Part shown: positions 11,580 through 25,205 of the stretch, one piece after another | How the letters are laid out: the number at the start of each line of letters is the position of its first letter | Numbering within the stretch: position 1 is the stretch's first letter | Origin: Syncephalis plumigaleata | Taxonomy: Eukaryota > Zoopagomycota > Zoopagomycetes > Zoopagales > Piptocephalidaceae | Assembly: GCA_025201365.1 (NCBI GenBank) | Contig: JAIXMF010000190.1 | Span: 1-25,205, forward strand | Direction: 5' to 3' | DNA: 25,205 nucleotides | Translations under genes and position numbers: made by a program | The notes under the pieces: model-generated | Database searches by the model: none | Told to the model about the DNA's origin: nothing | The model's input: only the letters and a program-made list of their open reading frames with translations

Positions 11580-11585
11580 TATAAA
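11580..11585 (+). promoter_or_regulatory. Candidate TATA box of the secreted-peptide gene
   Basis: TATAAA lies 131 bp upstream of the ATG at 11711 and is followed by a CT-rich leader of the kind seen before highly expressed fungal genes. Confidence 0.5.
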
Positions 11586-11710: not shown

Positions 11711-12871
11711 ATGAAGTTCTCTGCCGTTATCGCTATTGCCGTCGCCGTTGTCGCTCTCACCAGTCTGGTCGCCGTTGAAGCTAGTCCCGTCCTGGATCGT
11801 CGTGGTATGTCTGGCCGTGACCCTATCAATTAATGTACTAATTGTAGTCTATGATTTCATTGCCTACCGATAATTACCGATAGCTCGTAAGCTCATGTGT
11901 ATCAAATGGTTGTTTTGACATGTTAATCACACTATAATGTTTATTATACCTATTAATTTGTTAATAATAGCTGGTAAGTTATCCTATTAACCATAACAAG
12001 TACTATGCTAACAGTAGTATACATCAAAATTATATGTGACTACTATTTCAAGATCATGTAGGTTATAATATAATTGTAATGGGCAGCGCACTAACCACAA
12101 TACCCCATGTAACCTATATGCTCCTGTATGTTAGCATGTAAGCTACTATTATGACTGCAGCAAGCGAGGCACTAACCATACTATGACATATGATCTACGT
12201 ATGTTTCTGTATGTTAGCATGTAAGCTACTATTCTGACTGCAGCAAGCGAGGCACTAACCATATTATAACATACGATCCATTTATGTTCCTGTATGATAG
12301 GGTGTAAGCCATTATTTTGATCGTAATAAATGATACACTAATCATGCTATGGCTCATGATCCACGTATGTTTGTGTATAACAGCATGTAAGTCATTATTC
12401 TGACCTTAATGAACGTGGTACTAACTATAGTATGGCACATGATCCACGTATGTTCCTGTATGCTAGCATGTAAGTTACCATTCTGATTGCAATGCATGGT
12501 TGTGCTAACCACGCTATGGCTCATGATCCATTTATGTTCCTGTATGATAGGGTGTAAGTCATTACTCTGGTTGTAATAAATGATACACTAATCACGCTAT
12601 GGCTCATGATCCATTTATGTTCCTGTATGATAGGGTGTAAGTCATTATTTTGATCGTAATAAATGATACACTAATCACGCTATGGCTCATGATCCACGTA
12701 TGTTTGTGTATAACAGCATGTAAGTCATTATTCTGACCTTAATGAACGTGGTACTAACTATAGTATGGCACATGACCCGCATATGCTCCTATACGATAGC
12801 ACGTAAATTACCATTCTAGTTGTTACCTATGAGGCGCTAATCACATATGAATTATTATATTTCTACAGTGA
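11711..12871 (+). CDS. Small secreted His/Gly-rich peptide encoded by a chain of 3-nt micro-exons (predicted)
   Basis: Exon 1 (11711-11804) encodes a clear signal peptide: Met-Lys, a hydrophobic core of Ala/Val/Ile to about residue 22, then AVEASPVLDRR and the first base of a codon. Its codons favour C or T endings, as in highly expressed genes. A GTATGT donor follows at 11805. Predicted micro-exons: 11884-11886, 11971-11973, 12053-12057, 12135-12137, 12218-12220, 12301-12303, 12384-12386, 12467-12469, 12551-12553, 12634-12636, 12717-12719, 12800-12802, then a terminal exon from 12869. Joined they read A-P-D-H-H-H-G-H-H-G-G-H-H and stop at TGA 12869-12871, giving 44 residues. RR before APD could be a Kex2-type processing site, releasing a metal-binding-like peptide (inference). 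Alternatives: unspliced translation stops at 11831 (40 residues); removing the whole array as one intron gives a short VTLSGR tail. Exon 1 is firm; the micro-exon chain is a prediction. Confidence 0.6.
11805..12868 (+). repeat. Tandem array of about 83-bp intron-plus-codon units
   Basis: Units start at 11805, 11887, 11974, 12058, 12138, 12221, 12304, 12387, 12470, 12554, 12637, 12720 and 12803; the central spacing is 83 bp. Each begins with a donor (GTATGT, GTAAGC, GTAAGT, GTAGGT or GTAAAT). Nearly all carry a CTAAC or CTAAT motif about 30-40 nt in, and end in TAG, CAG or AAG followed by three bases (five in one unit) and the next donor. The first three or four units are diverged; 12138-12802 are strongly similar. 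Implied introns measure 79, 84, 79, 77, 80, 80, 80, 80, 81, 80, 80, 80 and 66 nt. This is a satellite-like repeat whose period coincides with splice signals. A passive minisatellite inside one long intron remains possible. Confidence 0.85.
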
Positions 12872-13083
12872 CATTAAGCGGTAGGTAATAATCCACAATG
12901 ATCATAGCCATACTAATCCATTATGATTACAGAGCAAGACAAGGACATCATCATCAAGTAGATATTATAGGTATTCAAGTCAAGAATGGATTGGTGCAAG
13001 ACCCTCATTTAGTGTCCATACCATTCAAGTCATTATTCCTTGGACCAAGAAATATATCTACAAGATCATTCAAGCATTCATTG

Positions 13084-13089
13084 AATAAA
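13084..13089 (+). terminator. Poly(A) signal downstream of the micro-exon gene
   Basis: AATAAA about 213 nt after the predicted TGA. It would give the secreted-peptide transcript a 3' UTR of about 230 nt. A further short intron in the UTR is possible (GTAGGT at 12881, branch-like TACTAAT at 12911, ACAG ending at 12932). Confidence 0.4.
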
Positions 13090-21851: not shown

Positions 21852-22860
21852 CGGTATGCTAATAGAGATGGAGTAATAATGATAATAATAAAACGACCTG
21901 GTAAGTGTTTAACACGTAACAACAATGAGGAACTGATAAGTTCTCCCACAAGGCAAGTAAGAGAGAGAGAGAGAGAAAAAGAGGAAGAGAAGGAGGGGAG
22001 AAAAGGAAGGAGAAAAAGAGCGAGCAAGTAAGCGAACGAGCAAGCAAATTTAAAAAAGACGAAAGAAAGAAGAAAGGAAAGAAAGAAGGAAGAAAGGAAA
22101 GAAGAAACGATGACTAACTCTACCAATATGGTGATAGTGATAGTGGTGGTAGTAGCAATAGTAGTAGTGATAGGTTAGAGGTTAGGGTATCCGTCCACAA
22201 GGCCACACATGCACACACACTACAATTCCAGAGTAGTGTTGCTTATTTGTAGGCGTACACTCACGCGCGCGTTACTACCCTAGAGAGAGAAAGAGAGAAA
22301 GAGAAAGAGAGTAGTAGTAGTGGTGGTGGTTTTACTGTTGTCTCAATAGATTGAATAACAGCCAAGGATTAGGTTATACTACTATTCAATCCACTATAGC
22401 TACTATTAGTAGTAGTAGTAGTAGTAATAGTACCAATAACTGAAGTGAGATGAAAGATGACAGAAAACGGGATGTCAAACTGATTAAAGGATAGGCAACC
22501 GCAAATGTGTGTGCGTATGCGCGTGTGGTGGTGGTGTGTGTGTGGAGGAAGAGGAAGAACAACACAACTGAAGGAGGAGAAGGGAAAAGAAAGAGGAAAA
22601 GTCAAAGAAGTTGTTTTTTTTTGAAAAAGGAGCAATGTTGTGATTGTAAAGGAGAGCAATACCAATATAATACTAGCACGTCTACTCTAGATGGAATACG
22701 CGTATAACACGGTCAATACGATATAGAATAGGGTAAAGGTATGAAACACGTAGATTGGTGTAGAGTGCTAGTATACAGATGCAAAAAGATACTTGCTTAT
22801 GAAGTAACGCGACATAGGATGTACTCATTAGTTACTTTTACTTACCTTAAGCAGAGGTGG
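21852..22860 (-). other. Leader and possible 5'-UTR intron of the PP1 gene
   Basis: Low-complexity DNA, pyrimidine-rich on the PP1 strand (purine tracts on the plus strand at about 21959-22110 and 22283-22310, and CCA/CTA-like triplet runs near 22137-22170 and 22310-22430). On the minus strand AAG-GTAAGTAAAAG gives a good donor at 22845, and an ATTAG acceptor at 21859 lies 7 nt before the PP1 ATG. A 5'-UTR intron of about 987 nt would remove the whole tract. No coding gene is supported. Confidence 0.35.
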
Positions 22861-24941
22861 ATTTCAACCCCGAATAACTAATACTATACTGATCAATGAA
22901 GGGATGGCACAGAGTAATCGAGAGTGAGGGCAGTAAGAAGGAACTACGATCAAGTAGCAAGAAAGTGTATAAATAGGAATCTATACACACACAATGCTGC
23001 CTACACGCATATACACATACACGCGCCAATAAGGATGGATCAAAGGAAGAAAAACACTGGCCAAGTAAGAGAGGAAGTGAGGAAGAGAGGGATGGTAACA
23101 ATTATAAAACTGGATGGATGTGAAGAATTCGGATCCTCATCTTCTGATGGAGATGATCTATTATTAGCATTCATGAATTGTTACATTGTAATTAACGAGT
23201 ATACAATACAATACAATGCAATACATTACATTATTGCTAGTAGTTTTATATATTAGATATATACATATGCTTATTAGTCAGTTGATTCAGTTGAATAAAG
23301 TGGGTAAAGAACTCATCCACGTGGATCTGTATGGCCTTTGTATGGTTTCAATTGAGTGTAGATGTGTGCCTTTTTTTACTATTAAACTTCATTATACATT
23401 AGAAACTAGGTTGTTTACATCTAGATCTACTAATCTACTAATCGATTTATGAACCTGTTGATGGTTATCGTACACGTACACGCGTTCTATCCATTAAATC
23501 ATCTTGTTGTTTACGCAAATGGCAATGAATTCGTAGATACTTCAGCTACTCTCACGCTTGCATAGTCGACCAACCAGCATCGCTTCCCAATGAGATTACC
23601 TCCTTTCTACTGGTTCATTTTCACACTCACACTCACAGGATTAATACTACCATTAATGCTACTACTACTACTACTATTAGTCTCAGTGCCAATTACAAAT
23701 TGTACCCCTGGTCTATGAGGGATAGAATTAATTGTTCATACACACATCATTGTTAAATGTGTACAAATTCTAATTTGCCTCTCGCTCTCTTTCTTGCTCT
23801 CTCTTGCTCTCTCCTTTTCCTTATCCTATTGCCACACTTTTTTTCATTCCGCAAACGCCCAGCTTTGCGTTTCGTTCCTTCTTCATCTCTCATCCTGCAC
23901 GCACGCACGCACTCTTACTCACTCACTCACTCACTCACACTTATACTCACTCATCAACAGCACACGTCTGTCCACACTTTCTTTAGTACAACAAAGAATA
24001 TTGGGTTACGGCGTTCTTTCTTTTTTCTGTCCTCGTCTCGCCTCGTCCCGTCTCGTTTACTCCCACTTACTCACTCACACAATCACAATCTCACTCTACT
24101 CTCTACTCTCTACTCTCTTTCGTTTCTCATTGTCATATTCGTACTACTACTACTACTACTACGGCCTGCCTGCGCGTCAGTCAGCTTGTCAGCCAGCCTG
24201 CTTTATCAAGTTTCTCTCTCGCTCTCGCTCTCGCACACTCACTCACTCTTTCTATCCTTCCATTAACAACAAAAAACTAGCCAATCCCTTACAATATTGC
24301 ACTCATCATCTTTACATATTGGTTGGTGTGCACGCTTTGATCATCGCGCTACTGTTTCCATAGGTTTCACTATATTCTGTGCAGATTGACACGTTAATAG
24401 CTGTTGCTATTAGGTGATATATTGCTTCGACTTACTGTGTGTGGTTGCTGCTGCTGCTACTGATAGTACTGCTACTGCTATTATTTGCTCGGCAACAGAG
24501 TCGCTGCTCTTCTTTCTCCTTCTTTCTATTGTCTTTCTCGCACCATTTATTTGCCTGCGCACGTGCGCTAGCCGCCTTGGACGCACTGCAGACGACGTCG
24601 ATTGTCGTTCTTTTTATTTGCACTCTATCAAAGTCTGTGATCCGGTGATCCAGCTTCATACTACTACTACTACTACTACTACACTCTATTATTCATCCTG
24701 CTATCATAGTATTATATCTACTCACTCCTTCTACTCACTTCTACTACTACTACTACTAGCACTTTGAGTAGCATACTACTACTACTGGTTCGTGTACAGT
24801 CGTCTATCACAAACGATTGACGGTCACGGTATCTCTATTGGAAGAGGTGTCTATTGCCATCATAATTATTGTTATACCACACTATTACACAAGCGTGTAA
24901 ATAGTATAGAATCTTGCTGCGGGACACAACTAGTCAACACC
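22861..24941. other. Low-complexity intergenic region and long pyrimidine-rich leader
   Basis: About 2 kb between the divergent PP1 gene and the gene at 24942. 22861-23750 is AT-rich with scattered dinucleotide runs and no supported gene. From about 23770 to 24780 the plus strand is dominated by CT, CTCA and ACGC/ACTC repeats and by several CTA triplet runs. The long open frames here (for example 23757-24363) translate into Ser/Leu/Thr/His low-complexity strings with no domain. Most of it is read as promoter and 5' UTR for the plus-strand gene. Confidence 0.5.
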
Positions 24942-25205
24942 ATGTCTGCACAGCCATCGTCTATGCAGCGCCCTGTGTCAGATACATTCGCGTTCTCTGA
25001 TATGGCGGCAGCAGTCAAGGAAGCAACTTCGAATAGCAAGGTCGACGCTAACATCAATGGTAGCCATGCAGCACATGTAACCAATGGAATGGCCATGGAA
25101 CCCGGTGTTGTGCACCAGCGTCCAGTTTCGGAAATTATCCCAAAGGATATGCCAAAATCTTCTGAAGGTGAGTATCATTACTACTACAAGTGATAATGGC
25201 ATAGT
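24942..25205 (+). CDS. Unrecognised protein, 5' end only, with duplicated QRPVS motif
   Basis: Exon 1 runs 24942-25167 (75 codons plus one base) to a GTGAGT donor at 25168; the rest lies outside the window. The ATG at 24942 sits in a good context (CACCATG) and is preferred over the frame's extension upstream, which has no ATG. The visible part starts MSAQPSSMQRPVSDTF and is polar and probably disordered. It contains QRPVS followed by Asp at about residues 9-14 and QRPVS followed by Glu at about 59-64; RPVS resembles a basophilic-kinase or 14-3-3 type site. There is no signal peptide or membrane segment in the visible part. I do not recognise the family. Confidence 0.65.

Follow-up and report, generated by a model that had tools for sequence, protein, structure and literature searches.

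The window, the 25,205-nucleotide stretch of DNA analysed here, contains a member of what is very probably, from the sequence signs described below, a large gene family for secreted peptides whose mature part is written one codon per exon. A previous sequence-only reading had described this locus as a single gene; the locus is real, but the phenomenon is a genome-wide family, and the sister loci support the view that it is a putative signal-peptide gene whose mature part is made of single-codon exons. Several signs in the sequence agree in saying that the triplets of these arrays would be spliced together and translated.

Organization of the window gene

All features of the window gene are on the + strand. 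A TATAAA box, recognized by sequence and of presumed function, lies 5' of the gene at 11580–11585, and TATAAAT is found within the 150 nt that precede the ATG of the window gene, L022 and L026, three of the eight loci looked at. Exon 1 (11711–11804; 150 scored genome matches) codes for a putative signal peptide, assigned by eye from the sequence and not by a predictor, and a SPVLDRR pro-segment; it reads MKFSAVIAIAVAVVALTSLVAVEASPVLDRR followed by G, ends in phase 1, and is followed by a GTATGT donor from 11805, exactly where the sequence-only reading had placed it. Downstream are two leader micro-exons in phase 1, CTC (11884–11886) and CTG (11971–11973), a 5-nt adapter micro-exon, ATCAT (12053–12057), which has a CAAG acceptor and changes phase 1 to phase 0, and a series of single-codon exons: CAT (His, 12135–12137), CAT (His, 12218–12220), GGT (Gly, 12301–12303), CAT (His, 12384–12386), CAT (His, 12467–12469), GGT (Gly, 12551–12553), GGT (Gly, 12634–12636), CAT (His, 12717–12719) and CAC (His, 12800–12802). 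These are the twelve micro-exons, eleven of 3 nt and one of 5 nt, that had been proposed earlier, and all twelve are recovered by a parser that relies on splice signals and ignores coding content; a plain pattern search alone recovers 11 of the 12, the adapter being called by the parser, and the junction of the CTC leader also has a counterpart in the paralogue L065. Joining the parsed exons gives the same product as before, one open frame in which RR is followed by A-P-D and then by His and Gly only (A-P-D-H-H-H-G-H-H-G-G-H-H-stop).

The stop is a TGA in the terminal exon, TGACATTAAGCG (12869–12880), identified by pattern, parser and comparison with sister loci. This exon had been taken for the last one; it holds the stop as proposed, but one more intron and the true last exon follow. 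The last intron (12881–12932), 3' of the stop, corresponds to contiguous junctions in paralogues, and the last exon (12933 to approximately 13105; 150 scored genome places), which is read as 3' UTR, includes AATAAA at 13084–13089.

Repeat analysis places a tandem array of intron-plus-codon units at 12117–12817, with a period of 83 nt and a higher-order period of 250 nt that corresponds to blocks of three 83-nt units. Because the core is a tandem array, the regular spacing at this locus alone could stem from duplication. The predicted product is a His/Gly peptide without the Cys framework seen in some sister loci, and metal binding is a guess. Neighboring open reading frames in the window match the mitochondrial DNA polymerase exonuclease and WD40/Utp12 families; the WD40 frame is closest to periodic tryptophan protein 2 (PWP2) entries, the first of which we take to be from Chaetomium and yeast, with human slightly weaker; by these matches the host is a eukaryote, probably fungal. 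Positions 22001–25000 of the window have a strong purine, then pyrimidine skew and simple repeats.

A family of split genes in the genome

The 32.6-Mb, 383-contig source assembly was searched, with alleles included in the counts. Exon 1 as a protein query gives 150 scored places (169 candidates), and the last exon likewise 150 (206 candidates). The 41 loci read are the window locus and 40 sisters from the top of the signal-exon match list; they were thus chosen by signal-exon similarity, come from one genome, and mix alleles with paralogues. In 36 of the 41 a GT donor follows exon 1 (split genes), and the other five are intronless; eight further short stretches, L061–L068, were chosen for their long open frames. 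Several pairs of loci are nearly identical and are probably alleles, among them the window gene and L056, which share 98.4% identity in the array and 99.1% downstream.

The strict junction TRTATGATAG-NNN-GTAAGTYA has 362 exact matches in the 32.6-Mb genome and none in the reversed control, and with this family in hand the regularity of the window locus is beyond chance. The same pattern occurs in 12 contigs of a prokaryote collection of 257 billion bases, with one match each, and in one contig of a viral collection. It catches 90 of the 589 units in the loci read, which extrapolates to about 2,400 units genome-wide, alleles included. With one 83-nt unit as the query there are 61 matching places in the source genome, 60 of them within about 3 kb of a family signal-exon or last-exon match as judged by eye; the remaining one, C318:646836, has no family match nearby, and may be a truncated locus or an array that does not belong to the family.

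The split loci share a common order: a signal exon with an Arg-Arg end in phase 1, leaders, an adapter, a core of 3-nt exons, a stop exon and a last exon. This order was derived with the splice-signal parser, which gives a bonus to CAAG acceptors, accepts loose donors and was tuned by eye between versions; four of the 36 split loci gave no parse, and there may be pseudogenes and parser errors among the loci. In the parsed loci the leader exons are often 3 or 9 nt long and in phase 1, and usually one 5- or 2-nt exon, often with a CAAG acceptor, shifts the frame to phase 0. Every unit of an array carries a donor, a branch-like sequence and an acceptor of its own, and three bases separate one unit from the next. 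At the 3' end a terminal exon, a short intron and the common last exon follow; in most split sister loci the terminal exon reads TAAGC[AG] and is followed by GTA[AG]G; in the window gene and L024 the stop is TGA. The longest parses are those of L026 and L027, in which 49 exons, counting the terminal one, follow exon 1. The leader arrays of L058 and L059 are expanded, with 9-nt phase-1 exons such as CTCCACCTC and GACCACGCC that recur several times.

Sizes were tallied in 23 of the 32 parses, those of L025, L037, L042, L045, L046, L048, L049, L050 and L055 being left out as doubtful. Among 523 small non-terminal exons 470 are of 3 nt, and the remainder are 23 of 9 nt, 16 of 5 nt, eight of 2 nt, four of 6 nt and two of 12 nt. 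The 546 introns range from 50 to 95 nt with a median of 80; GTAAGT (420) and GTAAGC (60) are the main donors, and the acceptors are TAG (366), CAG (145), AAG (34) and GAG (1).

Intronless paralogues and the last exon

The intronless paralogues have the same ends as the split genes with another cargo between them, about 120 residues long in L068. The similar intronless paralogues L053 and L054 have predicted cargoes of 23 and 37 residues, respectively, from position 25. L065 contains CGTCGTGCTCCTG, which equals window exon 1 joined to CTC and CTG (CGTCGTG+CTCCTG), a match that extends six bases past exon 1. At the other end, TAAGCA joined to AACAAGACAAG is contiguous in L053 and L054, TAA being the stop in L054, and TAAGCG joined to GACAAGACAAGG is contiguous in L061, L063, L066 and L067, where the TAA is out of frame with the signal. 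An ancestral gene without introns could account for these junction matches. Contiguous copies of three mature array peptides were not found in a genome search run without a positive control, and there is therefore no processed copy to prove splicing of the array core.

The last exon has an open reading frame, beginning RARQGHHHQVDIIGIQVKN..., that is uninterrupted in the window gene as in many of the other copies. It was considered as the coding C-terminus of the window gene and rejected; it follows the stop in L033, L035, L038, L054 and L068, and L038 also breaks its frame, and for these reasons the last exon is read as 3' UTR. The stretches L061–L067, selected for long frames and devoid of an array, carry the last-exon sequence in the same frame as the signal region (in L066 without an ATG), and may be relics or genes with a coding tail. 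The L025 parse enters this frame as well; the last exon may thus be coding in some paralogues.

The array triplets as probable codons

Stop triplets were counted in 27 loci, a single representative being kept by eye from each allele group and the intronless L053 excluded. In phase 0 there is one stop among 382 triplets, where 8.7 (position-specific) or 18.7 (pooled) would be expected, and this one, in L025, follows an extra 2-nt exon in the parse and is hence out of frame. Shifting the frame of the same triplet set gives 2 stops in 331 (+1) and 34 in 331 (+2), and none of the 100 strict junctions listed out of the 362 has a stop triplet, a set that partially overlaps the loci read. The first in-frame stop is in the terminal exon in 23 of the 32 parsed loci, two of which (L037 and L045) depend on doubtful parses, and the other nine are not open that far. 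The number of parsed loci with no stop before the terminal exon is 27 of 32 in phase 0, 28 in frame +1 and 5 in frame +2. This comparison mainly excludes frame +2, and because frame +1 is nearly stop-free too, stops alone do not pick phase 0.

Synonymous codon usage was compared with a reference of 242 codons from six intronless cargoes, L068 contributing about half of the codons. Phase 0 scores +0.22 bits per codon and the other frames -0.68 and -0.61; the best of 500 base-permuted sets reaches -0.255, and the best of 500 sets coding for the same peptides with housekeeping codons reaches -0.176. The codon-usage table, like that of the unit pairs below, includes the intronless L053, with chance matches. 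Examples of the phase-0 bias are CTT for Leu (14 of 16) and CAA for Gln (11 of 11). Against the housekeeping frames of the window, phase 0 and frame +1 are not separated (-0.065 and -0.05; -0.148 and -0.105 in a second scoring). The triplets of the 27 loci use only 46 of the 64 kinds, with TTC, TAC, CAG, GTA, ATA and most NCA, NCG and NTA absent or nearly so; the window housekeeping frames use them.

A C..CC..C framework is present in 7 of 11 long peptides that were hand-picked from the parses, whereas the highest count reached by 20,000 within-peptide shuffles is 3 of 11, and by 20,000 pooled draws 4 of 11; as an example of a long peptide, the L022 array spells CPDQEWNEFWDSDAQNCCHWGGNDILC. 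This result bears on whether all triplets would be used at once. The triplets could be coding but highly alternatively spliced, each transcript keeping a subset as in the schistosome micro-exon genes so that one gene makes many peptides, and any subset would be in frame, since every core triplet begins and ends in phase 0 and the splice signals are nearly identical; a framework shared by most of the hand-picked peptides suggests, however, selection on full-length products, and we consider this alternative possible although rather doubtful.

Variation and evolution of the arrays

Within each array unit, variation is highest in the triplet. In 262 unit pairs with 6–12 flank mismatches, which are not mutually independent, the three codon positions differ at frequencies of 0.44, 0.45 and 0.36, and intron positions in the same pairs, with the core splice signals left out, differ at a mean of 0.138 and a maximum of 0.355. 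Between the window gene and L056 no codon base in 27 and 11 intron bases in 748 have changed, fewer than one codon change being expected; the counts are 0 of 120 and 30 of 3612 for L026 and L027, and 0 of 87 and 20 of 2779 for L048 and L049. Eight pairs together have 17 of 432 codon and 266 of 13110 intron bases changed (Fisher p = 0.015), a modest excess in a test whose sites are not independent, which uses L048 twice and L043/L044 only in part. Faster codon change between close alleles is not supported, as codons change no faster than introns in the closest pairs, and these counts place the diversification between units and paralogues rather than in present hypermutation. The probable alleles L028 and L029 differ by a gap of 162 nt, equal to two units, and the L026 array includes repeated multi-unit blocks.

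Comparison of L043 with L044 between 1000 and 3200 nt after the ATG reveals an insertion of about 2 kb in the L043 array, with a 649-residue open stretch on the opposite strand. On either side of it lies a direct repeat containing a micro-exon and its splice sites (ACGATAGATGGTAAGTT), and the insertion therefore seems to have duplicated the micro-exon; pieces related to the inserted sequence are also present in L048 and L041.

An array interrupted in this way, together with the nine parsed loci that are not open to the terminal exon, would fit a reading in which many arrays, including the low-complexity His/Gly array of the window, are decaying or non-functional. We regard this as unlikely, since 23 of the 32 parsed loci, the window among them, are open; the absence of codon changes between the window gene and L056 points the same way, though with less than one change expected from the intron bases.

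With introner elements, one intron recurs in many unrelated genes, and the array introns could similarly be mobile elements inserted between the codons of a formerly continuous gene, as their mutual similarity and the existence of intronless paralogues with the same ends would allow. This reading is quite improbable: the 250-nt period, the L026 blocks and the two-unit difference between alleles fit tandem duplication of intron-plus-codon units, regular insertion at each codon is left unexplained, and the 60 of 61 unit matches (compared by eye, from a single unit sequence as the query) lie near family loci. That each array is one long repetitive intron, with exon 1 joined to the terminal exon, or removed by recursive splicing, and the triplets lost, is very improbable, for although duplication alone could explain the AG-NNN-GT regularity of tandem-repeat units and frame +1 is nearly stop-free as well, non-coding triplets should contain stops (1 of 382 seen), should not fit the synonymous usage of the intronless cargoes in one phase only, should not yield a common Cys framework and should not exceed the introns in variability.

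Comparison with known systems

Schistosome micro-exon genes are described as coding for secreted, fast-evolving proteins with a signal peptide, mainly from short symmetric exons of up to 36 bp, and as comprising 72 genes in 25 families that are apparently restricted to schistosomes (PMC8293314). The window family is similar in its 5' signal-peptide exon, as judged by sequence, and in being coded mainly by symmetric exons of 36 bp or less, here 470 of 523 being of 3 nt, but differs in its runs of single-codon exons within similar tandem introns. The host is also no schistosome; the PWP2-like WD40/Utp12 and mitochondrial DNA polymerase reading frames point to a fungus, and with window neighbor genes that look fungal, the earlier proposal that the gene was reduced from a schistosome-type micro-exon gene finds no support. 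By a wide definition of micro-exon genes, in which all exons are short and symmetric, the window family may be an extreme variant.

The aphid bicycle genes, named after a Cys motif, are insect genes, unlike the window family, and their exons exceed one codon. They are described as fast-evolving putative effector genes in which many internal exons are unusually small and of one phase, almost all starting at codon position 2 (termed phase 2), and a megacycle gene contains over 100 microexons (PMC9168663). In the window family the core exons, which are the majority, start instead at codon position 1, and only the leaders at position 2.

Isolated exons of 1 to 3 nt are described in Arabidopsis APC11, plant VPS55 and Fusarium CYP621A, and two 3-nt exons in Dactylellina lipS (PMC4674806, PMC8831610, PMC12940212, PMC5639578), the 1-nt Fusarium exon being from a 2026 report (PMC12940212). 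These cases are similar in that spliceosomes can include exons of 1–3 nt, but they are one or two tiny exons in ordinary genes, and here there are dozens in runs. For plant microexons, removal of the two flanking introns is apparently consecutive and more often begins with the downstream one (PMC8831610). This calls for caution about 5'-to-3' splicing in the window family, and the stepwise order proposed earlier for the window gene is so far unsupported.

Stwintrons are removed in consecutive reactions. They are fungal, with two intron units at one place (PMC5639578). Unlike these, no internal intron interrupts the splice signal of another in the window family, and stwintrons are without a coding triplet between the introns and without long arrays. 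Peptide families of the cone-snail type have a constant prepro region and 3' UTR with a variable Cys-framework cargo, and a mature peptide coded in ordinary exons. The window family shares the constant signal and 3' ends and the variable Cys-framework cargo, but its mature peptide is split over single-codon exons.

No description of runs of 3-nt exons is among the literature matches listed, subscription papers and most preprints being outside their scope, and the signal sequence as text has no match in the literature searched; we rate the kind as new because no runs of single-codon exons are among those matches.

A proposed mechanism and its implications

In the reading that we favor, a secreted-peptide family with one codon per exon, the spliceosome would remove every array intron by intron definition, using a strict GTAAGT, a TACTAAY-like branch site and YAG. 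A KEX2-type protease would then cleave after Arg-Arg and free the array-encoded peptide, which would have the C..CC..C framework in several genes and His and Gly in the window gene; the order of splicing and the function of the peptide are what we infer from the sequence. Unequal crossing-over or gene conversion inside the introns would add, remove or swap whole codons, and because similar introns flank every codon, such gain, loss or exchange would leave the frame intact, so that the secreted peptide would diversify codon by codon. We lean towards regarding this as a distinct gene architecture: across the genome roughly two thousand single-codon exons, counting alleles, would form a library with interchangeable introns, in which peptides would be edited by germ-line recombination and splicing would keep the frame.

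This, if true, would mean that tens of consecutive single-codon exons can encode the mature part of a protein, a challenge to the minimal exon size and the steric limits assumed for the spliceosome, and the order and fidelity of splicing would become testable within one transcript. Standard gene annotation would then likely miss whole families of this kind, and the arrays suggest a frame-safe route by which hypervariable secreted peptides may evolve.
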